In this document: one piece after another, positions 4,922 to 37,240 of the stretch
Layout of the letters: the number at the start of each line of letters is the position of its first letter
How positions within the stretch are numbered: the first letter of the stretch is position 1
Source: a virus
Strand: one strand, 5' to 3'
Virus record (IMG/VR): IMGVR_UViG_3300037189_007807
Location: 1-39,768 of that record
Length of the DNA stretch: 39,768 bases
Position numbers and translations under genes: made by a program
The notes under the pieces: model-generated
Told to the model about the DNA's origin: nothing
Database searches by the model: none
What the model saw: the letters and a program-made list of their open reading frames with translations, nothing else

Positions 4922-5470
4922 TCAGGCCAGGATCTCTTGGATCTTGGCGGGCAGATTTGAGGCCGCGGCCGCTGCGGCGATGGCCTGCAGCGTGGGCTCA
5001 GGAACAGCACCGGTGCGCCGGATGGACAGCCAGCAGCCGCAGAGATCCTCGGGTGACCCAAGGGTTGCCGACAGCAGGGCCGCCGGCAGGGCGAGCACCG
5101 CCAGCGGGGCCAGGGGCAGGGCGGCGGCGAGGGCGTCGTTCGTCTCTGGATTCGAGAGCATGGCCTTCTTGAACTGCTCCCAGTCCGCTGCGGGCTCCGG
5201 CGGGGGCGGTGGCACGATCGGGTCCACCTGCCACCCACGGGTCAGCGTGCCATCCAGGCCTGTGGCATCAGGGGCATCGGCCAGCCAGGCATAGGCCTCG
5301 GTTCCGGTGAGCTGCTCGGTTGCGGGATCGTGCTGCGGCTTGGGCAGTTGCACCACCTTGACCACCTTGTAGGCACTGCGGTCGAGGCCGATGACTGGTT
5401 CATCATCCGGCCGGGGATACGGCAGCAGGGCTGCGTCGCTGATGCGGTAGAGGTTGCGGGTGCTGGTCAT
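4922..5470 (-). CDS. Tail-fibre-associated hypothetical protein
   Basis: This 182-residue protein has an N-terminal region with the pattern NLYRISDAALLPYP, a Pro-rich linker (VPPPPPEPAADWEQF) and an Ala/Leu-rich C-terminal helical part (ALAAALPLAPLAVLALPAAL). The linker-then-WEQFKKAML arrangement recalls C-terminal modules that accompany phage tail-fibre genes, possibly assembly helpers. Its ATG overlaps the stop of the large LamG adhesin (ATGA), so it is translated with it. No enzymatic motif is seen. It could be a fibre chaperone or a small virion component. Confidence 0.6.
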   Translation of the reverse strand: MTSTRNLYRISDAALLPYPRPDDEPVIGLDRSAYKVVKVVQLPKPQHDPATEQLTGTEAYAWLADAPDATGLDGTLTRGWQVDPIVPPPPPEPAADWEQFKKAMLSNPETNDALAAALPLAPLAVLALPAALLSATLGSPEDLCGCWLSIRRTGAVPEPTLQAIAAAAAASNLPAKIQEILA

Positions 5471-10349: not shown

Positions 10350-12392
10350 TCAGTAGCTCCTGGAGATGGCAGCGCGGGTCACCTGGCTGCGGATGGCGCT
10401 GTTGAACGGCGGCCCACCCAGCTGCCCGCTGCGCGCATCGATCTGGAGGCCGCCGACGAACACCGCATTGCCGGCATCGTCCTGGCCGCTGAAGCGGACC
10501 CTGCCACCGTCGCGCTGCACGATGCTGCGCTGGATCCGGCGTGCGCTGCGTGCCGGCGGCACCCGGTAGAACTCGACCCCGGCCATCGGCCCGGTCCACT
10601 GGTGGTTGATGGCCGTGATCAGGCTGCGCAGCTTGCGGCGAACCGGCTCCACCGGCGACGGTGCCGGGCCTTGCCCCACCTCATACCAGTGGTTGTCCAG
10701 CGTCGCCTTCAGCCGCGTCACCAGGGCGTTCGTCATCGCCACGGCGCCGCCGCTGAGCTGGCCTCCAGCGATCAGGGTCGCCGCCAGCCGCTCCCAGCTC
10801 GCCTTGAACGCCGCGTGGAAGCTGTAGCTGTAGACGCAGGTGCCATCAAAGCCGAACATGCCTTCGGCGAAGTTGAGCATCGGCCGCTCAAAGCCATGGG
10901 TCAGCGATGCAGAAAGTGCATCGAGGAACAGGGCGGAGTCCTTGCGGGTGAGCGCCTCGAACCCGGCGGGCCATGACCCGGCCCCGTGGTTGGCCACCAG
11001 GAAGGCCCACACGTCGTTCACCAGGGCGGCCTTCTGCGCAGCGATGATCGTCCCCGCGGTGCCCTGGCTGGTGATCAGCGCTGGATTGATCGTCAGCGGT
11101 GCAATCTGCTGCGTGCTGCCTTCGCTCCAGAAGCTGTAATCCCCGAACTGGGAGCTGCTGCCGCTCACCACCATCTGGCCGCCATCGAGGCACATGAAAT
11201 GGCGGTGGGCGCCAACCCCGATCGCGTTGACCGGGTTGATGAATCCCCTGTTGCGGGCCACATAGCCCAGGCCATTCGCGCTGCATGGCGTGAAGCCCCA
11301 GGTCATCATGTTCGGGAACACGCTGTAGGGCGACAACACCGCCGCGTCGGCCAGGGCGCAGCCGCCTCCCTTCGGGTGGGCAGGGTTGCCGCCCGCTGCA
11401 TCCATCGGCAGCGGGGTGGGCACATCAGAGGCCAGCGAGCTGACGACGCAGTTCTGGCCATAGGGCACCCCGCCGGGGAGGATCACGGCCCCGGGCCTGA
11501 ACACCATGGCAAACCCCTTGGTGGGGTTGTCGAAATCGTCGATCTGCCAGCCGGTGAACTTCAGATTGACCAGGTGCGCGCCATTGCCGCAGCGAAACAC
11601 GTTGCGCTGCGCATTGCCGGCGGTGGGCTGGATCACCGTGCGGCGCTGGAAGTGCGCGCCCATGACGGTGCAGTTGTCGGGAACATCGAGCTCGCCTGCG
11701 GTGCTCAGCCCGTCCAGCAGCACCACGGTCCAGGGCCCCGGCTCAGCGAGGTTCTGCACCTGATCCAGGGCGTGTTCGATGTCGCGGAAGCCCTGGCTTG
11801 GGTTGCGGCCGGTGGCACGGTTGCTGCCGTCGCTGCGGACGTAGAACACCCTCGGCCGCTGGTCGATCGGCAGCGCGCCAATCGTGATCGGGGCAGTGCC
11901 GTCGAACAAGACCCCGTTGATGGTGCGGGGGGTCTGCAGCCGTGTCGCCGCCCCTGCGGTGTTCGCGTAGTTGGCGGCGCCGGCCTGGGTGGCGTAGTTG
12001 GCGGTGGTGGCGTTGCCGGCGGTTTCGGAGAGCGCGGCGTAGCGGCTGCGATCGAGCAGCTCCTGCACCACATAGAGGATCTGCTGATCAGCGGTGTTGA
12101 GGTCGAACTGGGTGAGGTTCGAGGCATCGGTCCACGGCACCAGCTGCCCGGAGCTCGGTGTCCGCCGCAGGATCGTCAGCGTGGTGCCAACTGCAGGGGC
12201 TGCCGTCAGCTGCAACGTGGTGTCGTTGACCCAGCTGAAGCCGGTCGGCTCGGCCAGCTCTTGGGTCAGCGTGTCCTCGAAATAATCCCAGCCATAGCCC
12301 ACCTTGACGTGCGCCCGCCGCAGATAGGGGAACGGCACGGCAAAGACTCTGGTGCTGCCGTCCCCGGAATAGGAGGCGTAGGAGAGGGGCAC
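10350..12392 (-). CDS. Tail fibre protein with T7 gp17-like N-terminus
   Basis: In this 680-residue protein the first ~115 residues match the tail-attachment domain of T7 gp17: YSGDGSTRVFAVPFPYL, TTLTILRRTPSSGQLVPW and FDLNTADQQILYVVQELL. A linker with NYATQAGAANYANTAG repeats is followed by a beta-helix-like centre (NCTVMGAHFQRRTVIQ, AHLVNLKFTGWQID) and a long mixed C-terminal domain. It attaches to the tail tube and recognises the host, or carries the adhesins encoded downstream. The start is GTG at 12392; no upstream ATG is in frame. It is larger than T7 gp17 (553 residues), and the C-terminal half is not recognisable. Confidence 0.88.
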   Translation of the reverse strand: MPLSYASYSGDGSTRVFAVPFPYLRRAHVKVGYGWDYFEDTLTQELAEPTGFSWVNDTTLQLTAAPAVGTTLTILRRTPSSGQLVPWTDASNLTQFDLNTADQQILYVVQELLDRSRYAALSETAGNATTANYATQAGAANYANTAGAATRLQTPRTINGVLFDGTAPITIGALPIDQRPRVFYVRSDGSNRATGRNPSQGFRDIEHALDQVQNLAEPGPWTVVLLDGLSTAGELDVPDNCTVMGAHFQRRTVIQPTAGNAQRNVFRCGNGAHLVNLKFTGWQIDDFDNPTKGFAMVFRPGAVILPGGVPYGQNCVVSSLASDVPTPLPMDAAGGNPAHPKGGGCALADAAVLSPYSVFPNMMTWGFTPCSANGLGYVARNRGFINPVNAIGVGAHRHFMCLDGGQMVVSGSSSQFGDYSFWSEGSTQQIAPLTINPALITSQGTAGTIIAAQKAALVNDVWAFLVANHGAGSWPAGFEALTRKDSALFLDALSASLTHGFERPMLNFAEGMFGFDGTCVYSYSFHAAFKASWERLAATLIAGGQLSGGAVAMTNALVTRLKATLDNHWYEVGQGPAPSPVEPVRRKLRSLITAINHQWTGPMAGVEFYRVPPARSARRIQRSIVQRDGGRVRFSGQDDAGNAVFVGGLQIDARSGQLGGPPFNSAIRSQVTRAAISRSY

Positions 12393-12440: not shown

Positions 12441-15400
12441 CTACCGCTGCAACGCGGCGCCGGGATTGATCGCTTCCACCAGGTCGCGCAGCTCGCCGGT
12501 GGCCTCCGTGAAGCGCTTTGCCGCCATGCGTGATCGCCGATCGCGCCAATCCGTGGCGGCTGGAGTTGAGGACGCATTGAGCTGATCCAGCGTCAGCAGG
12601 TGGAAGTAGGTGTAGACCCCCTGGATCATCTGCGAGGCGGCCTGCGAGCGGCGGCGCGCCGCCGGCATGTCGCGGACCTCCAGGTCGGAGGTGGTGCCGG
12701 GTCGGTCCTGCATCCGTTGGTAGACGGGGTCGTTGAACAGCGAGGTGAAGGCCTCGAGGATCGTGCGTCCCTTGACGTGCTTGGCCAGGAACGGCGCCAG
12801 CTCAACCGTGGCGTTCTCGCCCCCCTTGGCGACAACAACCCCGGAGCCCTTGAACTCCTGGCGCAGGTCCATCGAGACCTCCTTGGGCAGCGGGAAGGTC
12901 ACCGCGACCTTCGCCCCGGCGAGCTCCATCCGCGCCTCCAGCGGGATGCTGCCCTTCACCGTGCCGTAGGTGTTGCTGTATTCCGCCTGCAGCTCATCGC
13001 TCATCGCCACGCCCTCAAGCTGCCGGCGCAGCAGGGCGTTCGGCAGGGTCAGGCGGCCCTGGGCGTCGAGCTCGGCGTAGACCCGCTGGTGGGGCCGGGG
13101 CCAGATGCGAGGCAGGAACTGGGCCTTGGCCGTGTCCGCCCAGTCGGCCCCGAACTCCAGCATGATCGGCGACCCCAGAAAGTCGTTCGTCTTGCGCGGT
13201 GCGCCGCCGGCGAGGCCCATCAGGGGGATGGTGCCAAATGCCAGGTTGCGCAGGTTGCGCTCGATCTTGGTCGCCGGGTCGTCTTCCCCCAGCGCGAACC
13301 GCTCAGCGGGGCCGGGCTGCTGGTCTCGGTAGAAGTCCGTGCCGCTGGAGCCGGTGAGGCGCTGCATGTCGCGCATGACGCCGCTGCCGGGCAGCTGGCC
13401 CTGACCCAGCCACTGCACCAGCCGCGGCATCGCGGTTTCTGGATCCAGCAGCGCATCCACCAGGCGCTGCAGCTGGCCGAAGCCGGTCTGGCGGATCAGC
13501 TGGCTGGTCAGCACCTGCGCGACGCCCCAGAAGGCGTTGTGCTGGTCGAACGAGGAGTAGGACCCGGTGACAAACGTTTCCTTGATGTCCTTCCACAGAA
13601 ACAGGGTATTGAGGATCGGCAGCCCTCCCAGGTAGGGCACCCCGCCGATGCTGTTGGGCCGGTTTCCCTCCAGCAGCCAGGCGCGCCGCGCCGTCGGGTC
13701 CAGGGGCCCGTTGCCCTCGATCAGCCCCATCATGTCCAGCCCGGCGAACATGCCCAGCAGGCCGCCGGTCACGACCCAGCCCGCCTGCACCTTGGCGATC
13801 TGCTCCTTGGTCGGGTTCTTGCCGAAGACCACATGCACCGTTTCGGCCAGCGGCCCGAAGCTCAGGCGGGTGTCGAACAGGAACTGGTTGAACGGCGCAC
13901 GCCAGTAGGGCACTAGCGAATCGATCGCCCAGTGCTCACGGCCCTTCATCACGGCCTCATCGATCTTTCCTGCGAACTCGCCGGTGGGGGCAGCCTGCAT
14001 CCGGTTGCGCAGCGAGTAATCCATCGCACCCACCGCCTCGGGGGAATCGAGGGTGGGGTAGCCATAGGTCTCCCGCACGCGATCAGCGGTGATGATTTGC
14101 GCGATCTCGCCGTCGGTGATGTCGCTGTCCTTGAGGTTGTGCTGGCGGCGGAAGCTCTTGATGTTCTCCTCGGTCGGGGCTGCCTGGTAGAAGGCCTTGT
14201 CGAGCTCGCCCTGCACCCATTCCTCGCGGCTGCGGGCATCGAACAGGCCCAGCTGGGCGCCATCCTTGCGGGCCCGGATCTCGAGGTCGTTCTTCAGCTT
14301 GAACAGGAAGGCGTCGTAGCCGAGCACGCTGTCGCTGGCGCTCATGGCCCGCAGCGCAGGGATCAGCACCGCCGGGTTCTGGCCGGTCCAGTGGTAAGCC
14401 AGCATCCGGGTGCTGGCCTGCAGCTTGTGGACGTTCATCGCCCACCAGCGCGGATCGAGCGGGCCGCCGGGTGGGTACGGGGCCTCGATGACCGCCTGCA
14501 CATCGGCCAGCAGCTTCTCGTTCTTGTTGCCCCGCGCCCCGTAGGTGTCGACGTTGCCGCCGAACGGTGCATCGCCACGGAAGAAGGAGTCGGCCGCGAG
14601 CTCCCGCCAGGCCCGCCGCACCCCGTCGTGGGAGTAGGCGGCGCTCTCCCACGCAACCCGCAGCCCCTCGCCGAACGCTTCGCGGCTGAAGCGGGTGCCA
14701 TGGGGCGTGAGGTTGCCGATGTTCTCGAAGGCCTGGTGGACGAACCCATGGGTGTTGGCCAGCCAGCTGCCGATGGCGTTGGCGCGCACCTGGCTGCCGA
14801 AGTTCAGCAGCTGGGAGTCCTTCACCAGGGCATTCCCGAAGCGCATGTGGGAGTTGGCCCAGCCCTTGCCGAGCTTGGCGCGGGGGTCGAAACCGTCGAC
14901 GCTGGCAGCGATCTTGAGCTGCTTGATCTCCTCGGGCTTCCGGCCATCGATGGCATCCATCACCTGGCCGAAGTGCTCGTCCCTCACCACCTCCTGAGCC
15001 GTGGCGCCCAGCGTCTGCTTGGCCTCGGCCATGTCGACCGCGAAGTGGTGGGGTGCGGCGAAGTCCTCCTGAAGGCTGCGCAGGGCCTGGCCGGTGTTCC
15101 GCTTGGCGGTGCTCACATGCCGCTCGGCCATCAGCGCCAGCTTGTAGGTGCTGAACCCACGCCGCCGCAGGCCGTCAGGCACCGGGGCGGAGCTGTTGTC
15201 CATGAACTCGATGATCTGCCCCAGGGTGTCGAGATAACTGCCCTTGGCCATGTCGGCGATGAACCGCAGGCGCGTCATCTTCTCCGCCAGCGCCATGAAC
15301 CCAGCGGTGTTGTTGGCCAGCGCAGCGGCGATCGTGTCGGCGTCGGTGAACTCCCGGTAGGCATCGGCGACCGACTGCAGCAGCCGATCGCGCCCGTAGG

Positions 15401-15830
15401 TCGCGGTGACGAAGGCGAAGTCCTCGGGCGCCGCCTGGCGCCAGGTGCCGACCAGCGCCTCGGTGAGCTTCGCGTACTCCTCAGCGTCTTGGATGTTGGC
15501 GTTTTCGATCAGCTGGCGATAGTTGACGAAGCGACCTTCGCTGCCGATCGGCTTGGCGCGGTTGCCCAGGCCGCGCTGCACCAGGGCATCGAGCTCCTCG
15601 GATTCGAGGCGGGCCGCGAAATCGGTGTAGGCGCGATCGATCTCGGCATCCGTGATGGAGCGAGCGCTGCCGTCCTGCATGGGGATGACCCACTGCCGCT
15701 TGGCCTCCGTGCGGAGGAACATCTCGCCGGCCTTGCGGGCCCGCTCGGAAACGTCGAGCTCCTTCTGCAGGCGGGCGTTGTCCTCCTGCAGCTTCTTCAG
15801 CTCGTCGTCGTAGTTGTTGCAGCTGGTCAT
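12441..15830 (-). CDS. Large internal virion protein, second half of a split gp16-like pair
   Basis: This 1129-residue protein starts at the ATG that overlaps the upstream stop (ATGA). Residues about 8-40 are a coiled coil (DDELKKLQEDNARLQKEL). The body is helical with REHWAIDSLVPYWRAPFNQF and a hydrophobic region VVTGGLLGMFAGLDMMGLIE. These features resemble the C-terminal part of large internal core proteins that T7-like phages eject into the cell envelope. In T7 a single gp16 (1318 residues) fills this place. Here two proteins together make over 2600 residues. It probably forms part of the trans-envelope DNA channel. The resemblance is by architecture and position, not by strong residue identity. 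Confidence 0.7.
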   Translation of the reverse strand: MTSCNNYDDELKKLQEDNARLQKELDVSERARKAGEMFLRTEAKRQWVIPMQDGSARSITDAEIDRAYTDFAARLESEELDALVQRGLGNRAKPIGSEGRFVNYRQLIENANIQDAEEYAKLTEALVGTWRQAAPEDFAFVTATYGRDRLLQSVADAYREFTDADTIAAALANNTAGFMALAEKMTRLRFIADMAKGSYLDTLGQIIEFMDNSSAPVPDGLRRRGFSTYKLALMAERHVSTAKRNTGQALRSLQEDFAAPHHFAVDMAEAKQTLGATAQEVVRDEHFGQVMDAIDGRKPEEIKQLKIAASVDGFDPRAKLGKGWANSHMRFGNALVKDSQLLNFGSQVRANAIGSWLANTHGFVHQAFENIGNLTPHGTRFSREAFGEGLRVAWESAAYSHDGVRRAWRELAADSFFRGDAPFGGNVDTYGARGNKNEKLLADVQAVIEAPYPPGGPLDPRWWAMNVHKLQASTRMLAYHWTGQNPAVLIPALRAMSASDSVLGYDAFLFKLKNDLEIRARKDGAQLGLFDARSREEWVQGELDKAFYQAAPTEENIKSFRRQHNLKDSDITDGEIAQIITADRVRETYGYPTLDSPEAVGAMDYSLRNRMQAAPTGEFAGKIDEAVMKGREHWAIDSLVPYWRAPFNQFLFDTRLSFGPLAETVHVVFGKNPTKEQIAKVQAGWVVTGGLLGMFAGLDMMGLIEGNGPLDPTARRAWLLEGNRPNSIGGVPYLGGLPILNTLFLWKDIKETFVTGSYSSFDQHNAFWGVAQVLTSQLIRQTGFGQLQRLVDALLDPETAMPRLVQWLGQGQLPGSGVMRDMQRLTGSSGTDFYRDQQPGPAERFALGEDDPATKIERNLRNLAFGTIPLMGLAGGAPRKTNDFLGSPIMLEFGADWADTAKAQFLPRIWPRPHQRVYAELDAQGRLTLPNALLRRQLEGVAMSDELQAEYSNTYGTVKGSIPLEARMELAGAKVAVTFPLPKEVSMDLRQEFKGSGVVVAKGGENATVELAPFLAKHVKGRTILEAFTSLFNDPVYQRMQDRPGTTSDLEVRDMPAARRRSQAASQMIQGVYTYFHLLTLDQLNASSTPAATDWRDRRSRMAAKRFTEATGELRDLVEAINPGAALQR

Positions 15831-18800
15831 AGTGAGCAACCCTCACTCAGGGATTTGCGGCGGATCTCGTCGATCCGCTGGTTGTTGGCCTCGATCTGCT
15901 TCCATGCCGCCTGGTCAGCAACCTTGGTGCGGGCCTTGACGGGCAGGGGGCCAGCCTCATCCGTGAGCGTCATCGGCTCCGGCCGAATGGGGGCATCAGC
16001 CAGCTTCGCCTCCATCCGCGCCGGCGTCGAGTGCAGGATGTCGTAGCGCTTTAGGTACTCCTTGAGTTCCTGGGCCCCCATGGCCTCAGGCTCCAGATAA
16101 AACTGCTTGGCGATCTCGCCGGAATAGGCGGCATCCAGGATTTCGGCCACCTCTTTTGGCGGCAGATCCGCCGACGGCCTGGGCATCCCGGGGTCAATCG
16201 CCCGCGCGACCGTCTTTGAGAACGGAGCGATTTCGTCCGTGAACTGAGCAAGAAGCTCGATTACCTCGGGGGGCAGCTCGCGGTTGAGCTTGAAGCCCAC
16301 GCCAAGCAGGTAGTTTTTGATGCGCTCCCAAATCTCGATCAGCGGTTTAAGCGCTTTCGCAGTTTTAGCAGGAGGCGGGCTGTATTCACCCAGTTTCTTA
16401 GAAAGACGATCAAGCAAGTAGTCGGCCGCGTCCACCTTGCCGGCGCTGCGGTATGTGTCGGCCATGTCCCGGAGCAACCGCGCCGCGATGACTCGCTGAC
16501 TCCCCCACGCCATAAGCTCAACATTTTTCAGGGCCTGCGCGTCATCTGCGCTCATCATCTTAGTGGCCTCTCGGCGGAAGTATTTAGCCGATTCGTCGCT
16601 TGCCAGAACTTGTAGCTGATCCGGCGTCAAAAAGCGGCGCTGCATAACATGCACTGCTTCGTGAATGGCTGTCTGGGCCACCTCCTCTGATTCATGGTCC
16701 AAAAATACCCTGTTCTTCCGAGCAATAAGAACCAGGGGCTCCCTGCCCCAGTCTTCTCCGGCCGCGCCTTCAACATACCGAACCGTGCTCGGTTCGTTGC
16801 GGCCGTAGCCCGCCATGTCTGATTCGACGTAGGCCTGATCTGCTATCACTATTTTGCCCTTGTTGCCAGTGATTCTCCTGGCAAAGTCAATAATGTCTCG
16901 CTCGATGGCATCGGCAGCCCCTTCGTCGCCCAGGGTCCACATCCCTAGCCCTTTGCGACTGCCGACCCTGTTCAGCAGGTCACGGCGCTCGAACGTAGAA
17001 AGGCTGGGCCCGTAGACGAGTTTTGCAAAGTCCAGCGAGCTTTTGTCCCCCCTCTTGGCATCGAGGGGGATGCTTGCGTCGATAGATGGCCCCCTGGGCG
17101 GCTCCGGGTCGTAGCCGTCTGCCATGCCGAGCTGCTTCTTCTCCTCGAAGCTCTTGAGCTCGTAGCCGGTCGCGTCGCGCAGCCCCTCCTCGGCGATCCG
17201 CCGCATCTGCTGGTCGCGTTCGTGGAACTCCGCCGCCAGGCGCAGCTCATCCGCTGCCGCCTGCGCGCCGCGCGTGCCCGGTTGCGGCCGCGCTCCCTGC
17301 CCGTCGAGATCAGCGGTGGCCTCGCCAAGCGGCACGGTCGGCCCGTCCGGCAGTTCCGGCAGCTGCGACTCTGGCGGGCGCACCTCGCCTTCGCCGACCG
17401 CACGGCGGATCACGTCGATCTGCGCCGCCTGGCGCTGCTCCGGCGTGAGCTGGCGCGGGCCTGGGACGATGCGATCGGTGATCTTCCCGCCGTCGATGTC
17501 CTCGATCCCTGCCGATGTCTCCAGCATCCGGCGGGCCGTTTCGGCGTTCTTGGCGGCTGAGTCGCCCAGGGACCGCGCGATGCCCTCCATTTCGTCAAGC
17601 AGGGCCTGGGTTTCCGGGTCAAGCTGAACGGCATCCAGCTCCTCGCGGGTGGGCGGTGCGTCCAGTTCCGGCGAGTTCCCGCCGACAGGCCGCGCCATCG
17701 GCAGGCCCTGGTCCTCTGAGGCCCGCCGCACGGCCTCCACGATCCGGTCGCGGATCCGGTTGGCCACCACGCCTGGCTTGGCGCCATCTGCAATCTGCCG
17801 GGCACCCTCGTCGAGCAGATCGCTCACCGGGCCCGGGGCGTACTTCACGGCATCGAAGACACCCAGCACCGCCCGGGCGTCCATCGCCTGGCTGGCGCTG
17901 CCCTCGACGCTGATCTTGTTGCCCGCCTGCTGCAGCCGCTCTGCCTTCTTGCCGACCTTGCCAAACAGGTTCTTGTCGCTGGTGAGGTCCGCCCGGATCT
18001 TGGCTGCGAGCGTGCCCTTCTCTACCGCCAGGGAGAGGGCATCGTCATTCATGCCGAACAGATCGAGCAGGGTTGTCTGCGGGTTGTCCCCTGGCTTGGT
18101 GACCGGGGCGCTGCGCACCTGTTGCAGCACCTCGTTGAACGCCGCATCGCTCATGTCCCGGTTGCCCAGGATCTTCACGGCGGCCTGCATCTGCCCCTCG
18201 TCGAAGTCGGCCCCGCCCAGGGCAATCGCCTTCCCCTGCGACAGCTTCCCGTCGATCGCATCCTGGAAGATGTTGCCCGGCAGCTTCGACAGCGCCAGGC
18301 CCTTTGCAGAGTTGCCATCGCTCATGGGCGCACCCATGCGCTGCAGCTGCTCGGCATCGGTGATGCCGCTGTCGCGCATGAACTTCGCGGCATCGAACAC
18401 CGTGCCGCGACCCTCCTTGATGTTCGACAGCGCCCCCAGGGCCCGGGCCTCCTCGGCGGTGGCGGCCACCAGCTCACGCACCGGCACGGTGGGGATGCCG
18501 AGCTGCTTCGCCCGGGCCAGCCGGTTATGGCCGTTCACCACATAGGTGATGCCGTCAGCGGGATCGGTCCACACATCGATCACGCCCTCGGCAACGGTGT
18601 CCCAGCGGCTCACGCCCGACAGGCTGTTGCCGATCTGCTCCCCCTGCTCGTTGGTGCCCTGCTTGAACTGGAACCGCTGCGGGTCCGCCTGGATTTCGCC
18701 AACCGGCCGGAATGACTGCTGCCAGTCGCGCGCCAGCAGTTCCTGCCCCGTCTCCTCCCGATACCGGGCCAGGCCCTCGATAATGTCGGCCCTGGTGAAC

Positions 18801-20407
18801 TCCTCGAAGTCGCGGCCGGTGGCCTCCGTGATGATCTGCGCCAGGTCGGGATTGTTCTCCGGCGCCGCCACGCCCCGCAGCGTTTCGAAGCGCACCGACT
18901 CCAGGGTCTGCTCGTAGGTCTGCGGCTGCCCTTCGCGGCCCATCCGTTCGGCCACATTCCCGGCCGGTGCCATCACCCGGCCCTGCTCCAGCTCGGGCTC
19001 CACCGGCAGCCCCTGCCGTGCGGTCAGCAGTTCATCGATCCGTGGCACCACGGGGCCCGGCTGCTGCAGCAGGCCCAGGAGGTCCTCGTCGTCGAGGTCG
19101 CGGACCAGGTTGAGCACCACATCTGCTTCAGGCAGGGCCGGGTCGTAGATCAGCTCGCCGGGATCGATGACCTCGCCGTCGACGGCCAGCGGGCTGTCGC
19201 CGGCACCGGCCGGCTGCTCCGGTGCAGCAGGGCGATCCGGTGCGGCCGCGGTGGCAGGCGGCTCCGGTGCAGCGGCTGGCGCTGCTCCCCCAGCGGCCGG
19301 GGCCGGTTCCGCTTCCGGGGTGCGGCCGGCCTCGATCCAGTTGTCGATCTGCTGCTGGGCCTGGGCCTCGCCTTCAGGATCACGGAACGACGTGGCGCCG
19401 GTGGTGGGGTCCGTCTCGGTGATGCCGGCCTGCTCGAGCTGCTGCCGCGCACCGGTGCGCTCGGTCCTGACGCGGGACTCCGACAGCCAGCGGCGGGTGT
19501 GACGCAGCCCGGCGACGCCAGCACCCAGGCCCGATAGCGCCACCCCCGGCACAGCGTTGGGCAGCAAGCTCTTGAACGCCGAGTCGATCCAGTCGTCGCG
19601 GCCCACGTCCACCGCCAGCGGCAGGCTCAGCCCGGCCGCCTCGCCCAGGTTGGAGATGTTGCCGCCGCGGTTGTCATCAAGGAAGGTGCTCAGCACCTCG
19701 CCAGCGGCCCAGCGCGCGCCACCAGTGAGCGCAAGGCCGGCGGCGCCGGTTCCCATGGCGGGAATCAGGGGGACAACGGCGCCGGTCGCCGCTGCGGACG
19801 AACCAACGCTGCGGACGGTGAGGTCCAGGTTCCGCTCAAAGTCGTTCTGCCGGCTGGGCGGCGTGGCCCCATAGAACGAGTAGGCGGATTCAACCAGTCG
19901 CTCGATCGCGTTGCCGGCGGGGCTCGCCTCAGGGTTGGCCCGTTGCCCCCGCATCTTCTGGCCGACGGAGACGGCGAACTTGGCGGCGTTTTCCGCCACT
20001 CCAACGGACAGAGCTGCGACCACGTTCCGGCCGGTCTGGCCGCCTGGCGGGTTGATCAGCGGGGCGGCGAGGCCAAAGCTGGGGGCGACCACCCGCCTGA
20101 TCGTGTCCGCCATGCCGGACGATTGCGCCCCCCGCCGGTTGGTCTCTGCCACCTTCCGGCCGATGTAGCGCAGCTCGTTGCCGATGACCCCGATCGGGTC
20201 GCTGAAGATGCTGCGGTTCAGCTTGCCGGTCTGCTCCAGCCGCTTGAACGATGCTGGCGACTGCCAGCGCCAGCCAGGGCCGGCCCACTGCACCCGGCGG
20301 CCGCGCAGCACAGATGCGCTGCCGATCGGTCGGTCGGCATCGGTGTAGCGCTGCTTGCCCTGGTCGGGAACGACGGGCTGCCCGGCGCCGGTGAGCTTGA
20401 GGGCCAT
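15827..20407 (-). CDS. Giant polyvalent internal virion protein (ParB-like and HEXXH peptidase domains)
   Basis: This 1526-residue protein is in the gp16 position. After a ~300-residue N-terminal part with hydrophobic Gly/Ala stretches and an Ala/Pro linker (about 370-410), a ParB-like/sulfiredoxin fold appears around residues 600-720 with YVVNGHNRLARAKQLGIP (G626-H-N-R). A zinc metallopeptidase motif HEAVH (H1249, E1250, H1253) lies in QTAIHEAVHVMQRRF. Multi-domain proteins combining ParB, peptidase and other modules are known as polyvalent proteins and are delivered with mobile DNA. It may be ejected with the genome and act on host targets. The peptidase region (about 16.3-17.1 kb) is visibly lower in GC, as if inserted. 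The start has a strong Shine-Dalgarno, GGAGGT, 8 bases upstream. Confidence 0.75.
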   Translation of the reverse strand: MALKLTGAGQPVVPDQGKQRYTDADRPIGSASVLRGRRVQWAGPGWRWQSPASFKRLEQTGKLNRSIFSDPIGVIGNELRYIGRKVAETNRRGAQSSGMADTIRRVVAPSFGLAAPLINPPGGQTGRNVVAALSVGVAENAAKFAVSVGQKMRGQRANPEASPAGNAIERLVESAYSFYGATPPSRQNDFERNLDLTVRSVGSSAAATGAVVPLIPAMGTGAAGLALTGGARWAAGEVLSTFLDDNRGGNISNLGEAAGLSLPLAVDVGRDDWIDSAFKSLLPNAVPGVALSGLGAGVAGLRHTRRWLSESRVRTERTGARQQLEQAGITETDPTTGATSFRDPEGEAQAQQQIDNWIEAGRTPEAEPAPAAGGAAPAAAPEPPATAAAPDRPAAPEQPAGAGDSPLAVDGEVIDPGELIYDPALPEADVVLNLVRDLDDEDLLGLLQQPGPVVPRIDELLTARQGLPVEPELEQGRVMAPAGNVAERMGREGQPQTYEQTLESVRFETLRGVAAPENNPDLAQIITEATGRDFEEFTRADIIEGLARYREETGQELLARDWQQSFRPVGEIQADPQRFQFKQGTNEQGEQIGNSLSGVSRWDTVAEGVIDVWTDPADGITYVVNGHNRLARAKQLGIPTVPVRELVAATAEEARALGALSNIKEGRGTVFDAAKFMRDSGITDAEQLQRMGAPMSDGNSAKGLALSKLPGNIFQDAIDGKLSQGKAIALGGADFDEGQMQAAVKILGNRDMSDAAFNEVLQQVRSAPVTKPGDNPQTTLLDLFGMNDDALSLAVEKGTLAAKIRADLTSDKNLFGKVGKKAERLQQAGNKISVEGSASQAMDARAVLGVFDAVKYAPGPVSDLLDEGARQIADGAKPGVVANRIRDRIVEAVRRASEDQGLPMARPVGGNSPELDAPPTREELDAVQLDPETQALLDEMEGIARSLGDSAAKNAETARRMLETSAGIEDIDGGKITDRIVPGPRQLTPEQRQAAQIDVIRRAVGEGEVRPPESQLPELPDGPTVPLGEATADLDGQGARPQPGTRGAQAAADELRLAAEFHERDQQMRRIAEEGLRDATGYELKSFEEKKQLGMADGYDPEPPRGPSIDASIPLDAKRGDKSSLDFAKLVYGPSLSTFERRDLLNRVGSRKGLGMWTLGDEGAADAIERDIIDFARRITGNKGKIVIADQAYVESDMAGYGRNEPSTVRYVEGAAGEDWGREPLVLIARKNRVFLDHESEEVAQTAIHEAVHVMQRRFLTPDQLQVLASDESAKYFRREATKMMSADDAQALKNVELMAWGSQRVIAARLLRDMADTYRSAGKVDAADYLLDRLSKKLGEYSPPPAKTAKALKPLIEIWERIKNYLLGVGFKLNRELPPEVIELLAQFTDEIAPFSKTVARAIDPGMPRPSADLPPKEVAEILDAAYSGEIAKQFYLEPEAMGAQELKEYLKRYDILHSTPARMEAKLADAPIRPEPMTLTDEAGPLPVKARTKVADQAAWKQIEANNQRIDEIRRKSLSEGCSL

Positions 20408-20413
20408 GGGCTG

Positions 20414-23338
20414 TTACCTCCGTCGACTGGTGATGGTGTTGCCTGTGGCGCCGATGTCGCCTGGCACCAAGACGAACACCTGCCGGGTGGCTGAGCCGTA
20501 GATCAGGGGGCCTTTCGCGCTGCCGTTCCAGAGCGTCCGGCCCCCCTCGCGGGCGATCGCCGCATCGAAGCCCCGCGACCTGGACGACGTGCCGCCCCAG
20601 TCGAACTGCGTCTGGAACACGACGGCGCCGCTCGGCACCCGCCCGGCTGCGGCCGCCGCCTGGTACTCGCTTGCGCTCATCACGTTGGCGGTGAACGCCC
20701 CGTAGGGGCTGTTGATGGTGCGCGGCTGGCCAAGGCCGGGCAGGGGCTTCCAGCTGAACGAGCGCACCAGCTGCGACGCCAGGCCGCGGGGGTTGTTGCC
20801 GGCGTCCAGCCCCGTCGCGGCTGGGTTCGGCACGCCGTTCGCCTTCATCGAATCGAGCACAGCGGTCACGCACAGCCCGGGCCTTGTCGCCACCATCCGC
20901 CCGCTGCCGAGCCTGGCCAGCGTCGGGCTGCTGAGGGCCGGCCCGGCCGGCAGCGGCGAGTTGGTCGCCACGCTCACGCCACGGTTCGCCAGGCCCACCG
21001 CTGACGGCAGCCGCATCGCCGGCGCCGCCATGGCCGGCTTGGTACCGAGCAGCATGTCGAGCATCGCCACGCTGGCCCGCTGCACCGCGCTGGCCCGGTT
21101 GCCGCTCGCCGCGCCGGCCGCCGTGTTGCGCGCCGCCTGCGCCTGCCGCCCATCGCGCAGCAGCCGCTGGCGGTCGGCCGCCGGCACCTGGATGCTGCCC
21201 GGGTAGAAGTCGAGCTGCTTGATCAGCAGGGCGCCCGGGGTGGTGCCCGCATCCCGCGCGAAGCGGCGCAGCGCAGCGCTGGGCGCCCCGCCGCTCAGGA
21301 TCCGGTTCGCTTCCTGCACCACGGCCGCCGGCTCGAGGATCGGCTGTTGCCGCCAGCGGTTCAACGTGGCGGCCCGGTCGGGGATGTTGTCGAGCTGGCT
21401 GCTCGGGTAGACCCTGCCGGTGAATGGCTTGGTGCCAGGGGGCAGCACGGGAGGTTTTGCGCCGCCCTGGCCGCCGCCGCCCGCTGGCTGCTGCCGCTGC
21501 GCAGGGCCGGCCCCCTGCTGGCCGTTCACGCCGGGGAACAGATAGCGGCGGGCGTCCTGGTCCTTCTGCCCGTATTCCTCGATCGCCTTGGTCGCCTCGC
21601 CGATCGCTTCCGCCGCCGTGAGCGGGCGGCCCTTCTGCCCCTCTGCCGCCGCGATCCGGTCGCGGACGTGGCCCTGAAAGGCCGAGAACTGCCTGCGGGC
21701 CGATTCCGCCACGTTGGCGTCGGTCCAGCCGGCCATGATCGCCTCGGTGTTGACCCCCCGCAGCGCCGCCTCGGTGACAGAGCCGGGGTAGTTGACCCGC
21801 AGATTCGCCTTGATGGCCCGATCGATCACGCCATTCACCTCCCTGGTCGTCGGCGCGGTCTCGCGGGCGTTGTTCCGCTGGCGGATGTCGGCGTACTGGG
21901 CCCGCAGCTTCGGCCGCTCGTCTTCCGGTGCGCTCGCCAGCGCGATGTTGAACTCGGCGTCGGCCTGGGCTGGGTTCCATGCGCTGCCGTAGCGGCTGGT
22001 CATGTCCTGCAGCAGGGCCGTGACCCCATCCATCGACCGGCCGAGGCCCACCACCTTGTCGATCGTGCCGCTGGCCTTCTGCTCCAGCTCCAGCCGCTGG
22101 CTCAGTGGGAGCTCCTGGAACTTGGGATCGTTGCGCAACGCCTCGATCGCCCGCAGCCGCTCCGGCCCATCCGGCAAGCCATAGGTCGCCTGGATCAGCT
22201 GGTCCTGGTAGCTGCGCCCCAGCTCCTCTTGCCGGCGCTGCTGCCGCTTGTAGGCCACCTCCCCGTATTTGATCTCGCTGTCGAGGGCCTCCTGGGCGAA
22301 CATCCCCGCCGCCGGCTGGCGGAACCCCGTGCTGTCCGGCGGCCCCACCGGGATGCTCAGTGCCAGCCGCTTCAGCTCCTCGTTCCCATCGGCGTTGGCG
22401 ATGGCCAGCAGCTGCTCGATCGCTTGTTGCTTGACTGTCGCCACCTCGCCGGGCAGCCCCATCTCCTCGACCAGCCGATCGAGGGTGGCCCCCATCACCT
22501 GGCTGCGGGCCTGATCCCAGCCAGGGTCTCCAGTCTTGACCAGCTGGCGCCGACCATCGGGGGCGAACACCTCCAGCTGCCCCTCGTCCAGCGACCTGAC
22601 ATAGAGGCCCAGCATTTCGGCCGATGCCGTCCTCGGCACCGTCCGCTTCAGGTGCGCGCTGCGGTCCTGCCAGTGCAGTTCCGTCATCCGGTCGCTGCCT
22701 TCGTTGATCTGCGGCAGGACGTTCTGGATGAACCCGGGGCTGGCCTCGGTCACCCCGTACTTCTTGAGCACGGACTGCACGGCCCGGGCCTTGATCTCGG
22801 CGAGCCGTGGGTCCCGCTCGTCGAGCTGCTCCACGCCGGGCTGGTCCCGATAGGCCGCGATGATCGCCGGCTTGACCTCCATCCCCGCCAGCTGGACCAG
22901 GGCCCGCTCTCGCCCCGACCGCCGCCACGGGTTCACCGTGTCCATCATCAGCGCAGCGACCGGATCGGCCTGCGCCAGCCGGCGGTTCTCCGCGGCGTAC
23001 TCCCGCCCCGACTGCCGCTGTTGCTCGTCCAGCAGGGCCTTGGCCCGCAGCGCTTCGTTGACGCCGCGCTGCACCTGCGAGCTGGCGTACATCGTCAGGC
23101 CGGTGCCGGCGAGCTCCGTCAGCCGCTGGTTGAAGGGCGCCAGGGCCTGCGCCATCTGCTCGAACTGGTTGATGCCCTGCAGGCTGCCGCCGCTGGCCTG
23201 CTGGATCACCCCGATGCCCTGCACCCGCGGGATCTCCACCGGCCCCGCCGGCGCCGCGATCTGCCGGCGGACGGGCTCGAGGAAGCTCGCAACCGGCTGC
23301 GCCGCCGGGCGGATCTGCCCATCAGGAAGCCTCGTCAT
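20414..23338 (-). CDS. Internal virion protein, gp15-like, with C-terminal CHAP/NlpC-like domain
   Basis: This 974-residue protein is mostly helical with long heptad-like segments, as in T7 gp15 (747 residues), which lines the ejected DNA channel. The C-terminal ~150 residues look like a papain-type (CHAP/NlpC) fold: GLCVTAVLDSMKANG with a possible nucleophile C823, GAVVFQTQFDWGG, and SRGFDAAIAREGGRTLW. In active NlpC/CHAP enzymes a His sits near the GFDAAI position; here it is F924. The domain may be inactive or use another residue. It could locally cut peptidoglycan during ejection, a job done by the lytic transglycosylase of gp16 in T7. Its ATG overlaps the gp14-like stop (TGATG). Confidence 0.75.
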   Translation of the reverse strand: MTRLPDGQIRPAAQPVASFLEPVRRQIAAPAGPVEIPRVQGIGVIQQASGGSLQGINQFEQMAQALAPFNQRLTELAGTGLTMYASSQVQRGVNEALRAKALLDEQQRQSGREYAAENRRLAQADPVAALMMDTVNPWRRSGRERALVQLAGMEVKPAIIAAYRDQPGVEQLDERDPRLAEIKARAVQSVLKKYGVTEASPGFIQNVLPQINEGSDRMTELHWQDRSAHLKRTVPRTASAEMLGLYVRSLDEGQLEVFAPDGRRQLVKTGDPGWDQARSQVMGATLDRLVEEMGLPGEVATVKQQAIEQLLAIANADGNEELKRLALSIPVGPPDSTGFRQPAAGMFAQEALDSEIKYGEVAYKRQQRRQEELGRSYQDQLIQATYGLPDGPERLRAIEALRNDPKFQELPLSQRLELEQKASGTIDKVVGLGRSMDGVTALLQDMTSRYGSAWNPAQADAEFNIALASAPEDERPKLRAQYADIRQRNNARETAPTTREVNGVIDRAIKANLRVNYPGSVTEAALRGVNTEAIMAGWTDANVAESARRQFSAFQGHVRDRIAAAEGQKGRPLTAAEAIGEATKAIEEYGQKDQDARRYLFPGVNGQQGAGPAQRQQPAGGGGQGGAKPPVLPPGTKPFTGRVYPSSQLDNIPDRAATLNRWRQQPILEPAAVVQEANRILSGGAPSAALRRFARDAGTTPGALLIKQLDFYPGSIQVPAADRQRLLRDGRQAQAARNTAAGAASGNRASAVQRASVAMLDMLLGTKPAMAAPAMRLPSAVGLANRGVSVATNSPLPAGPALSSPTLARLGSGRMVATRPGLCVTAVLDSMKANGVPNPAATGLDAGNNPRGLASQLVRSFSWKPLPGLGQPRTINSPYGAFTANVMSASEYQAAAAAGRVPSGAVVFQTQFDWGGTSSRSRGFDAAIAREGGRTLWNGSAKGPLIYGSATRQVFVLVPGDIGATGNTITSRRR

Positions 23339-24147: not shown

Positions 24148-24602
24148 CAGCGCCACCTCTCGAAGTGAACGAACAGCTCAGCGCATGGCCCCATGGGGAC
24201 GGGGTTGTCGATCGTGAAGCCGAGCGATTTCAGCCAGCGCAGGGTCGTCGCGTTCTTCGCCAGCGCATAGTTGTGCAGCGGTCGCTTCACGTCGTCGTCT
24301 GCCAGCAGCGCATCGACCCACTGCTTTGCACCCCTGATGAATTGTCGCCGATGGCTGGGGGTGGCCAGCAGCCCATCGGTCGCCAGCAGCCAGATCCGCC
24401 CTCCTTGGCCAATGCCAGCGATCCCCACGGGCCTGCCGTCGTCTCCGTCTATGCAACGGCAATCGGGGGAAGATCGCCAGCTCTCGAACACTGCTTCGGC
24501 TGGCTGCATCCCATGGCTGCAGAACACCTCGATGGCGTCCTGGCGGCGGAGGTTGGCGGCGATCACTGCCACCCTCTCGAAAGTCGGCGGGGCCCAGCGC
24601 AT
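24147..24602 (-). CDS. Internal virion protein A, gp13-like (GNAT-related fold)
   Basis: This 151-residue protein starts at the ATG overlapping the tail tube B stop (TGATG). It resembles T7 gp13, a degenerate acetyltransferase-like protein of 138 residues. GRPVGIAGIGQGGRIWLLAT matches the central strands, and NYALAKNATTLRWLKSLGF corresponds to the gp13 segment around NTSHIRFLKTIG. The last motif is the family's most recognisable part. In T7, gp13 is needed for virion assembly and is lost before ejection is complete. No catalytic acetyltransferase activity is implied. Confidence 0.85.
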   Translation of the reverse strand: MRWAPPTFERVAVIAANLRRQDAIEVFCSHGMQPAEAVFESWRSSPDCRCIDGDDGRPVGIAGIGQGGRIWLLATDGLLATPSHRRQFIRGAKQWVDALLADDDVKRPLHNYALAKNATTLRWLKSLGFTIDNPVPMGPCAELFVHFERWR

Positions 24603-27073
24603 CACAGCAACCTCGCTTTGGCGGACAGCCGCCCCACCCACTCACAGGTCGAGAACCGGCACGGCGCCGGCGTGCTGTTGTGCAGCTCGATCACGCACGT
24701 TTCCCCCTTGCTTTGGATCGGGATGGTGAACACCCCATCGAGGGAGCCGTCTGCCAGGTCTGCCTCGAGCACGCTGTTCCGGGAGCCCAGCATCGTGCCG
24801 TCCCAGACATAGACGGCCCGGGGCCGGTGCTCGGCTGTCACCCACGCCTGGAATGCGGGCGTTTCGTGATAGCGGAGCTTGGCGTGCCGAACCTGGGTGC
24901 GGGTGGCGTTGACCGCGACCTTGCCGCCGCCCTGCTCCTTGTAGAGCTTGAAGCGGGTGAAGGTGTAGGCGAAGTCGTATTGCTCCCCGAACCACACTTC
25001 CCTGTTTCTCCAGTCCCCGCGGCCGATGATCTGGTTGCCGCTGCTCGCCTCGCCGAGCATCACGCCGCCAACCTGCCCCGGGGCAAAGCCTGACCAGGCC
25101 TGGGTGCGGGCCCGGATCGTGTAGGGCAGCGTCCAGGTGGTGGTCTGGGCCAGCGGATCCCACACCCCGGACGGCACCCGCATCGCCGCTGGCGTCTGCG
25201 ATGTGGTGGACACCCGCCGATCGAGCAGCAGGGGGTAGCCGCCAGCCGGCGCGGCGCTCAGCCGATCCGCGACCGGAATCTTCTCCAGCCACACCTCGGA
25301 GCCGTACTGCACCAGGGCGAATAGCTCCTCGCGCACGCACAGGATCTGCAGGATCTGATCGGCGCCGTTGAACTGCCAGTAGCTCCAGCTGCTCTGGGCG
25401 CGCTCTGCCCCGCCGCCGGTGTTGCGGTAGAGGAACTTGTAGACGTAGATCCGATCCTGATAGCCGGCCTTGGCAGAGATTGCGAACCAGGCATTGCCGG
25501 TGTCGTTGGCGGCAAGCCGCGTCACCTCGCTGGGGATGTAGCTGGAAACGTGGCCGGTCAGCTCGTCCGCGTCTGCCACCAGGGCAGTGCCTGCGCCGCG
25601 CACGCTGAACTCTCGGAACCGCGACCACTCGCCGTTCGCCTGGCACATGATGATTGCGCCGGCGACCGGGATCGGCCGCACGTCCGGGTCGATCTCGTAC
25701 TGGGTGAGCACCGTGATCTGGGCCGTGGCTGGGCTCAGCAGCGCATCGGCCGAGCTGAACCGGAACTGCAGCTGATCGGAGAAGACGATCAGCTCGTCCT
25801 GGTAGGGGATGGCGTAGCGCAGCACGGCGACCCTGGCATTGCTGGCCTTGAGGTCGATCGGGTCCGTGTCGAGCGTGGCGGTGACGGTTTCCGGGAAGAA
25901 CTCAAAGAAGTCCCGCGTTCTGCTCAGGACGATGTTTTCGTCCGCCAGCATCCCCAGCCGGTTTTTGTAGATGAATACATCCTGGATTGGGTATCCAATG
26001 AAGCTGGGATCCGGCGCGGTTTCGTAGTCGCCTGCCGTCCGCTCACCCCAGGCCGGAACCGTTACGCCGCCCTGCGTGCTGCCGTTGGCAGGGCCGAAGT
26101 AGAAGCTGCCTGCAGGCAACCGCACCAGCACATGCGGCATGGTGGCGGCATCGATCCGGTACTGCACCCCAGGCGCGACGGTCTCCTCCCAGGTGCCCTC
26201 GCCGAAGCTGCCGACCCTCGGCTGGAACTGGACGTAGAACCCGTCGAACTTGTTGCTCGGATCGCCCGCCACCTCCACCTGGTAGCCGGCCGGCGCGATC
26301 GTGGGCAGCTCGGTGAAGGCCTGCACCCGGCTGGTGATCGCCGTGATGTCGGCGTTCGCCCTGGCATCGGTGGCCGAGACCGTGATCGGGCTGGCCGACT
26401 GCAGCCAGAGGACGCTGCCGGCCCTGCTGATCGTCACGCCGGGGACCCCGGCGAGCGCTGTCAGCAGCGACTGGGCGATCGTCTCTGAGCTGATCCGGTT
26501 CTCGGTGGTCGTGCTGCCGGACACCACCACAGCGGCGACCGGGGTCTGCACCGTGACCTCGGTGCCGTTGACGTTGACCCGGTAGGTCTGCCCGTAGTTG
26601 GCCGCCTTCACCCACACCAGGCATTCATGGGCCGCCGGCCGCGGCGTCGCGGGGGCCACCGCAGCAGCCATCGCCGGCACCTTCCGCGTGTTCGAGATGA
26701 ACGAAAAATCCGCGATCGTGGCGGCGCGCAGGTCCTGCCGTGGGCTCGTCGCGGTGGAGAGGTAGCTGAACCCCAGCGGGGCGCTGACCGTCTTCTCCAC
26801 CCCGTCGAGGTCGAACACCTGCACGGAGGACCGGCCGATGACCACCAGGTACTTCTCGAGCGTGTCCCGCTCGATCTGGTGGAAGAACGCATCGCCGAAG
26901 GCCGTCTGGCTGACCCGGGCGATCGCCTGGCTGGGTTCGCGCTTCCGCAGCCCCTCGGCCATGGAGCTCATGGCGTTCACCTGCGCTTCCGCCTGGGTGG
27001 GGTCGCGCTGCCCGTCCGGCTGCTGGCTGACGCCCTGCACCAGGTTGGGGATGAGGTAGCTGACCAGGCTCAC
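24602..27073 (-). CDS. Tail tubular protein B (gp12-like nozzle)
   Basis: This 823-residue protein is close to T7 gp12 (794). The N-terminus, YLIPNLVQGVSQQPDGQRDP, followed by QVNAMSSMAEGLRKREP, is the family signature. It forms the hexameric nozzle at the tail tip below gp11 and carries the fibres. The start is GTG at 27073, overlapping the gp11-like stop (GTGA), so it is coupled to the adaptor. No truncation is seen. Together with gp11 it forms the short non-contractile tail. Confidence 0.95.
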   Translation of the reverse strand: MSLVSYLIPNLVQGVSQQPDGQRDPTQAEAQVNAMSSMAEGLRKREPSQAIARVSQTAFGDAFFHQIERDTLEKYLVVIGRSSVQVFDLDGVEKTVSAPLGFSYLSTATSPRQDLRAATIADFSFISNTRKVPAMAAAVAPATPRPAAHECLVWVKAANYGQTYRVNVNGTEVTVQTPVAAVVVSGSTTTENRISSETIAQSLLTALAGVPGVTISRAGSVLWLQSASPITVSATDARANADITAITSRVQAFTELPTIAPAGYQVEVAGDPSNKFDGFYVQFQPRVGSFGEGTWEETVAPGVQYRIDAATMPHVLVRLPAGSFYFGPANGSTQGGVTVPAWGERTAGDYETAPDPSFIGYPIQDVFIYKNRLGMLADENIVLSRTRDFFEFFPETVTATLDTDPIDLKASNARVAVLRYAIPYQDELIVFSDQLQFRFSSADALLSPATAQITVLTQYEIDPDVRPIPVAGAIIMCQANGEWSRFREFSVRGAGTALVADADELTGHVSSYIPSEVTRLAANDTGNAWFAISAKAGYQDRIYVYKFLYRNTGGGAERAQSSWSYWQFNGADQILQILCVREELFALVQYGSEVWLEKIPVADRLSAAPAGGYPLLLDRRVSTTSQTPAAMRVPSGVWDPLAQTTTWTLPYTIRARTQAWSGFAPGQVGGVMLGEASSGNQIIGRGDWRNREVWFGEQYDFAYTFTRFKLYKEQGGGKVAVNATRTQVRHAKLRYHETPAFQAWVTAEHRPRAVYVWDGTMLGSRNSVLEADLADGSLDGVFTIPIQSKGETCVIELHNSTPAPCRFSTCEWVGRLSAKARLL

Positions 27074-37208: not shown

Positions 37209-37240
37209 CCTCCTAGTAGCTGCAGTGGCAACCACCTAGG
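37209..37240 (-). promoter_or_regulatory. Gap between RNA polymerase and SSB with CCTAGG/CCTAGT
   Basis: CCTAGG (37235-37240) spans the RNA polymerase stop codon, and CCTAGT (37212-37217) lies 20 bases on, next to AGGAGG. Both hexamers resemble the elements in the left intergenic region and upstream of capsid. It could hold a promoter or RNA-processing site for the middle genes. Chance is possible, because one copy contains the TAG stop. Confidence 0.3.

Follow-up and report, generated by a model that had tools for sequence, protein, structure and literature searches.

Analysis of the virus record IMGVR_UViG_3300037189_007807 (IMG/VR), whose 39,768 nucleotides form the window studied here in its full length, identified a large open reading frame (ORF), termed P0001, at 15827..20407 on the minus strand. 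P0001 is probably (probability about 0.68) the front half of an ejection protein of the internal virion protein D (IVP-D) type, which is split into two overlapping genes and carries a ParB clamp and an exchangeable effector cassette; the protein would be packed in the virion and ejected early in infection. The ORF of 1526 aa predicted in the initial annotation was confirmed, with an ATG start and a ribosome-binding site, GGAGG, at 20417-20421 before this minus-strand gene. The locus has a late phage context and adjoins virion genes.

The P0001 family was compared with longer related proteins. The window family (the window, S31-C1 and L012) aligned over its full length with columns 1-1246 of the 2429 in the long form, and was matched to the P-SCSP1-type long form by hhalign at 100% (E 1.6e-65, 21% identity), collinear from the N-terminus through the ParB and zincin regions. 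The remaining half of the long forms was matched to the family of the window's next gene (12441..15839, minus strand, 1132 aa) at 86% (E 4.8e-6), with reversed and unrelated controls below 1%; against a smaller long-form alignment, the same family gave 12% (E 0.002). The two genes of the window overlap (15827 versus 15839). As the long forms are one polypeptide, while their C-terminal half is a separate gene in the window, the ejection protein in the gp16 position seems to be split into two genes here.

The C-terminal half of the long form L009 was matched by tblastn to annotated IVP-D of CRP-114 (E 4e-4), CRP-804 (E 1e-3) and ProddE (E 6e-5). Comparison with IVP-D by hhalign gave 99.8% (E 2e-29) for the long-form C-terminal halves and 91.5% (E 8.6e-7) for the family of the next gene, with reversed controls below 1%; against single IVP-D proteins the latter gave 80, 10 and 34%. 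The next-gene protein of the window also matched phrog_6651, 'internal virion protein' (E 3e-5), and so did L009 among five further C-terminal halves, the other four giving no match to it. The N-terminus of the long forms matched that of IVP-D (hhalign 93.5%, E 2e-7), and the match for the window with L011 and L012 was weak (48%, E 1.8e-4; reversed control 0.1%). For the N-terminal match, the reversed control was run with the short family and with some of the long forms. Part of this region in P0001, residues 130-300 (19508..20020, minus strand), is modestly hydrophobic. P0001 had been annotated initially as an internal virion protein in the position of T7 gp16. The IVP-D link holds for the next gene and the long forms, whereas the N-terminal match of P0001's family is weak and the internal-virion half is the next gene. 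The gp16 position is filled by P0001 together with the 1132-aa gene, which intervenes before the tail fibre.

Counts of relatives covered 80 retained out of 213 relatives plus earlier loci, and the way in which loci were fetched shapes the shares. Among 78 distinct complete ParB proteins, 15 were fused to the IVP-D-like half, 31 had it next to them and 32 had neither arrangement. In all 12 close relatives, the following gene matched the profile of the window's next gene. The proposed polyvalent architecture is upheld by this fusion or adjacency, in that a ParB module and a zincin-type site lie in a large polypeptide linked to an ejection protein. Delivery with the invading DNA, as expected of polyvalent proteins, would follow from the same linkage to the IVP-D-like half. 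The counts also bear on the possibility that P0001 is made late and is never ejected, serving instead in assembly or inside the cell that produces it. Its gene simply stands among late genes, and no detection in virions was found, which would suit such a role; however, the long forms are single polypeptides with the IVP-D-like half, 31 further proteins adjoin that half, and P-SCSP1a g20 and g21 were guessed to be internal virion proteins from their size and position in the available text of the genome report (PMC9860041). The g21 protein, taken as locus tag 00021, is a long form. A non-ejected P0001 is therefore considered highly improbable.

The ParB module lies at residues 563-906 (17690..18721, minus strand) and comprises an NTPase-fold domain, a helix-turn-helix domain and a helical extension, as judged from the model and from fold and profile matches. 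The GHNR motif at residues 626-629 (18521..18532, minus strand) stands in place of the GERR of Noc/ParB in a profile alignment to Noc; its G and R were invariant in 18/18 aligned sequences, and its H and N were kept in at least 90%. An AlphaFold2 (AF2) model of residues 556-913, built from the 18-sequence alignment, had a predicted local distance difference test (pLDDT) score of 78.7. Foldseek analysis matched the model to the PDB at E 2.4e-5, and its 19 matches at E <=0.001 are all ParB, Noc or KorB. In VIA, the model was matched to Myxococcus ParB with Z 10.5 and a root-mean-square deviation (rmsd) of 12.2 over 159 residues, the high value presumably reflecting a different hinging of the domains, and to Noc and KorB with Z 8.9-9.3, 197-199 residues aligned and rmsd 5.0-6.3. 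The ParB profile also matched Noc among PDB sequences at E 9e-4, in an alignment spanning the helix-turn-helix region through position 204.

A DdrB-like ParB was considered and rejected. Neither P0001 nor the 18 aligned ParB sequences (the window's included) matched ddrB-ParB (PF18763), on which P1 DdrB scores 2e-39, and hhalign against the single P1 DdrB sequence showed no relation to the ParB of P0001. Together with the ParB/Noc matches, these results indicate that the module is a ParB/Noc/KorB-type core with a helix-turn-helix, and not of the DdrB type, on the evidence of the model and the profiles. The ParB-like domain with GHNR near residue 626 described initially was thus supported by the model, Foldseek, VIA and profile matching. 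A parS-like repeated palindrome was sought in the window and rejected; the window has 23 perfect 12-mer palindromes, one of which occurs twice, compared with 17.6 in 5 letter shuffles.

In PHROGs, P0001 residues 568-896 matched phrog_21, labelled portal protein (E 1e-41), and weak matches to ParB-like families were also obtained. The module aligned to positions 1022-1348 of the 1362-position phrog_21, and may therefore also occur fused to portals. The same ParB module was present in five ORFs of 4328-4611 aa (L134-L138), in which no HE..H was found after it; four of the five are cut by the contig end. Two long-form relatives with the zincin and the IVP-D-like half (L007 and L010) had no ParB profile match and no GHNR-type motif was found in them, suggesting that ParB too may be dispensable.

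Residues 1101-1472 carry a zincin-type metallopeptidase site, recognised by conserved residues, and proteolysis is predicted. The HEAVH motif is located at residues 1249-1253 (16649..16663, minus strand), and the predicted third zinc ligand is E1297 (16517..16519, minus strand), 48 residues past the first histidine. H1249, E1250, H1253 and E1297 were invariant in 22/22 homologues, three of which (L007, L009 and L010) came from a pattern search that included HE[SA]xH. In a 24-sequence set with 30% mean column identity, only these four columns were invariant; this set and the 52 proteins described below were picked by HE[SA]xH (L007 and L010 by HESFH), so that H, E and H are there by choice and the glutamate at 1297, kept in 24/24, is the sole independent test in the 24 sequences. 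An ExxA motif was present 41-53 residues on in 51 of the 52 proteins with HE[SA]xH after the ParB module, the remaining one being cut off.

Two motif-free profiles, one for the stretch on each side of the motif and both built without the window, matched 61 ORFs apiece (E <0.01). HE..H was found on the expected side in 60 (before-motif profile) and 59 (after-motif profile) of the 61; in the three exceptions, the ORF is truncated there by the contig end. A hidden Markov model (HMM) from which the window and three S31-C1 copies were excluded, with L012 kept and with domain limits taken from a profile holding the window, scored P0001 at 44.7 bits over residues 1173-1380. Both motifs noted initially, GHNR near 626 and HEAVH at 1249-1253, thus seem to exceed chance expectation, and conservation among relatives, which the initial annotation had named as a test, was observed for GHNR in 18 and for HExxH in 22 sequences.

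Several results weigh against the proposed ejected effector protein. Both motif-free profiles missed the window's own zincin, whose identity to the zincins of L064, L065 and L073 is only 17-19%. The AF2 model of the zincin had a pLDDT of 53.5, with strands below 50, although the order of helices and strands fits a zincin, and this poor model gave no significant fold match against the PDB or BFVD. No Pfam peptidase was matched by the window; among the 24 members, one SprT-like match (E 0.099) and one Peptidase_S11 match (E 0.0057) were obtained. At the N-terminus, the window sequence alone gave no IVP-D match, and a lytic transglycosylase was not identified in P0001 by Pfam. T7 gp16 itself showed no similarity to the C-terminal half or the N-terminus (hhalign 0.1-0.6%), and homology to it by sequence was rejected. 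No virion proteomics for the P0001 family was found in the literature searched, and the available text of the P-SCSP1u cryo-electron microscopy paper names portal, adaptor, nozzle, fibre and capsid only (PMC10575957). Annotated IVP-D proteins likewise failed to match T7 gp16 (0.1-0.2%), so the D label rests on their depositors. The N-terminal lytic transglycosylase is also missing from P22-like gp16, according to the available text of PMC8954989.

Structure prediction, proposed initially as a check on both domains, therefore yielded a ParB fold and a poor zincin model without a useful fold match; of the zincin claim, the conserved active site stood and the fold did not follow from the model. 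Two Pro-Pro endopeptidases (PPEPs) appeared in the zincin-model fold search, at insignificant rank only. PPEPs are themselves zincins. Matches to FtsH around TAYHEAxH were weak (E 0.09 to 1.3), and the N4-like virion RNA polymerase was rejected as a zincin relative, its match (E 6) being considered due to chance and lacking HExxH in the stretch examined. No Pfam family matched P0001, and hence no Pfam polyvalent domain (LPD, MPTase, ART) was identified.

The low identity of the window zincin (19% to that of L064), its absence from the motif-free profile matches and the missing fold match are what would be expected if HEAVH were a degenerate or structural remnant in a domain without protease activity. 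However, the four catalytic positions are kept in 22/22 homologues while most other columns drift, and a remnant is thus considered improbable.

Comparison of close relatives of P0001 demonstrated that the cassette is exchanged on a conserved chassis. The comparison covered 13 of 15 chassis-motif proteins, L069 being dropped as identical to L068 and L076 as cut off (L076 was kept in the tree and left out of the zincin count). Common to the 13 proteins, of which the window's is one, are an N-terminal region, the ParB module, a linker of 118 residues and a tail at the C-terminus. Computed over aligned pairs with gaps left out, the 12 relatives were 56-63% identical to the window in the N-termini, 64-80% in ParB and 58-71% in the linker (residues 983-1100; 17108..17461, minus strand). 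The tail is located at residues 1473-1526 (15830..15991, minus strand), and its last 34 residues were 61-71% identical to those of the relatives. Between linker and tail lies the exchangeable slot, residues 1101-1472 (15992..17107, minus strand), delimited from the 13 proteins; in the window it is zincin-like, as scored with the leave-out HMM. The slot held a zincin in 5/13 proteins (window, L064, L065, L071, L073), an ADP-ribosyltransferase-like (ART-like) module in 2/13 (L066, L094) and another module in 1/13 (L067), and was nearly empty, with 21-63 residues, in 5/13 (L068, L070, L072, L074, L095). Additional modules were located before the linker or after the tail in relatives.

Near-identical chassis were found with different slots. 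L066 and L067, whose slots differ, have N-termini 92% and linkers 99% identical to each other, and L064 combines a zincin with a chassis whose identity to that of L067 is 89/86/94%. L072 and L076 share their first 633 ORF residues, and have a nearly empty and an ART-like slot, respectively. On the best N-terminal (chassis) tree, zincin presence changed four times (three to five times in bootstrap trees); the tree has eight open branches, and only two changes were forced by its starred, well-supported branches. The ParB module was itself mosaic: L067 and L068 were 92-100% identical over residues 1-480, 40-80% over 561-920 and 95-100% in the linker. Between L067 and L068, L070, L071 and L074, identity was 66-67% in the ParB modules and 88-94% in the N-termini, which suggests recombination inside the ParB module.

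The ART assignment is based on a Pfam PARP match for one cassette (E 3e-5, 24.1 bits against a cut-off of 26.7) and on weak ART-PolyVal matches in three different cassettes of relatives (E 0.01-0.04), all ART-like scores being below the curated cut-offs. A zincin and an ART-like module occur together in L071, L122 and the P-SCSP1 group, and the long forms carry the zincin and a first ART-like module. LPD38 was identified in a related protein of Ruegeria phage 45A6 (Pfam, E 1e-50).

HE[SA]xH was missing in 8/46 complete IVP-D-linked ParB proteins in which the chassis motifs were kept. The chassis thus does not seem to need the zincin; its loss or change on a kept chassis makes a required maturation or assembly protease unlikely, whereas a delivered effector could behave in this way. 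These comparisons lend indirect support to the delivered effector suggested initially, with the slot enzyme as its probable cargo for the host. The same proteins argue against a zincin that acts as a self-processing protease, with no host target, freeing or trimming the protein before packaging or after entry. Self-processing was proposed for P1 DdrB, a precedent discussed by Iyer et al. (PMC5512222, available text), and a releasing peptidase could matter where the zincin and ART-like modules co-occur, as in L071, L122 and the P-SCSP1 group. On balance, we consider self-processing unlikely.

If P0001 is part of an ejected effector protein, its N-terminal region and the product of the next gene would form the ejection chassis, with the ParB-type DNA-clamp module and the effector cassette sitting between the chassis parts. 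In T7 gp16, a DNA-binding middle part lies, according to the model, in the host cytoplasm with a membrane region on either side (PMC8954989, available text). The modules of the window are flanked by modestly hydrophobic stretches, as in T7 gp16, at residues ~130-300 of P0001 and ~690-750 of the next-gene protein; from this arrangement, we infer that ParB and the cassette would face the cytoplasm of the host. On the T7 gp16 analogy, ParB would hold on to the genome as it enters and the zincin would cleave a protein of the host, perhaps one of its defence proteins. A broader proposal is that the cytoplasm-projecting part of the ejection protein became a ParB-type clamp gripping the genome at the membrane and a docking site at which zincin, ADP-ribosyltransferase-like and other enzymes can replace one another; the outcome would be a polymorphic set of effectors that reach the cell ahead of the DNA. 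This proposal is tentative, and its likelihood falls somewhat short of even odds.

The gene content of the window is that of a T7-like phage. A head-tail adaptor (in the portal position), a head assembly protein, capsid, tail protein, nozzle and T7-type fibre are encoded (Pfam/PHROGs), as are a terminase, a gp2.5-like single-stranded DNA-binding protein and an exonuclease. All of the following genes are on the minus strand. The T7-type RNA polymerase is located at 37236-39455, the nozzle protein of the T7 gp12 type at 24602..27073 (Phage_nozzle, E 5.7e-225, Pfam) and the tail fibre, with a T7 gp17 N-terminal domain, at 10350..12392 (Phage_T7_tail, E 2.6e-24, Pfam). A 974-aa gene at 20414..23338 is assigned to the gp15 position from its location and an S31-C1 homologue. 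The C-terminal ~150 residues of its product are common to cyanomyovirus proteins, with identity up to 49%, and its N-terminus resembles a Synechococcus phage protein annotated as an amidase. Downstream of the tail fibre, a 762-aa protein with a concanavalin/LamG-type lectin domain is encoded at 5467-7755.

Polyvalent proteins with ParB and metallopeptidase domains, a giant DarB-like podovirus virion protein and MuF toxins are already known. As in the polyvalent proteins described by Iyer et al. (PMC5512222, available text), P0001 is a large multidomain phage protein of a late structural locus with ParB-superfamily and metallopeptidase domains, and its relatives have ART-like modules. Here, however, the ParB differs from the DdrB type, the domains are carried by an ejection protein of the IVP-D type in split or fused form, and cassette exchange was seen directly on a conserved chassis; in the available text of the same paper, recombinational cassettes were suggested for loci of one bacterium (PMC5512222). 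Phage P1 DdrB similarly has a ParB-superfamily domain in its N-terminal part and an HExxH (HELGH) near its C-terminus, but it is a myophage head protein and showed no detectable profile similarity in either domain when the single DdrB sequence was tested.

The gene position before the tail fibre is shared with internal virion protein D and T7 gp16, and the C-terminal half matches IVP-D of the Roseobacter phages CRP-114 and CRP-804 and of Desulfovibrio phage ProddE. In contrast to T7 gp16, to which no sequence similarity was detected, ParB and a cassette are added here and two genes are present. The long form (g21) of the P-SCSP1 (MPP-C) cyanophages shows the same collinear arrangement of N-terminus, ParB and zincin as the window family; it differs in being one protein, 2563 aa long in P-SCSP1g, to which an ART-like module is added, and is labelled 'hypothetical protein' in the records. 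MuF polymorphic toxins (PMC5576092, available text) likewise combine toxin domains with a family of phage structural proteins, but their carrier is the packaging-module MuF protein in temperate phages of Firmicutes, whereas the slot of P0001 lies inside a T7-like ejection protein. The initial annotation placed a polyvalent protein in the ejection apparatus of a podovirus; a giant protein of polyvalent type in podovirus virions is already known in gp69 of the Bcep22-like podovirus JC1, a DarB-like protein detected in virions by mass spectrometry (PMC9144972, available text). In contrast to P0001, gp69 has 4515 aa and is described as an antirestriction protein, with no IVP-D link described in that text. 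No account of cassette exchange in an IVP-D protein was found in the open-licence literature searched, as far as its text was available. As far as this literature shows, what is new is the chassis of the IVP-D type, its Noc-type ParB module and the direct evidence of cassette exchange.

In the available text of their paper, Iyer et al. left open whether polyvalent metallopeptidases process their own protein or attack the host (PMC5512222). The natural relatives of P0001, which have a conserved chassis and differ mainly in the slot, help to separate these two readings and constitute matched sets for experiments. The authors of the P-SCSP1 genome report could not annotate g20 and g21 (PMC9860041, available text). 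The present analysis gives a function-bearing annotation to an unannotated protein of the P-SCSP1 cyanophages, which are in culture.

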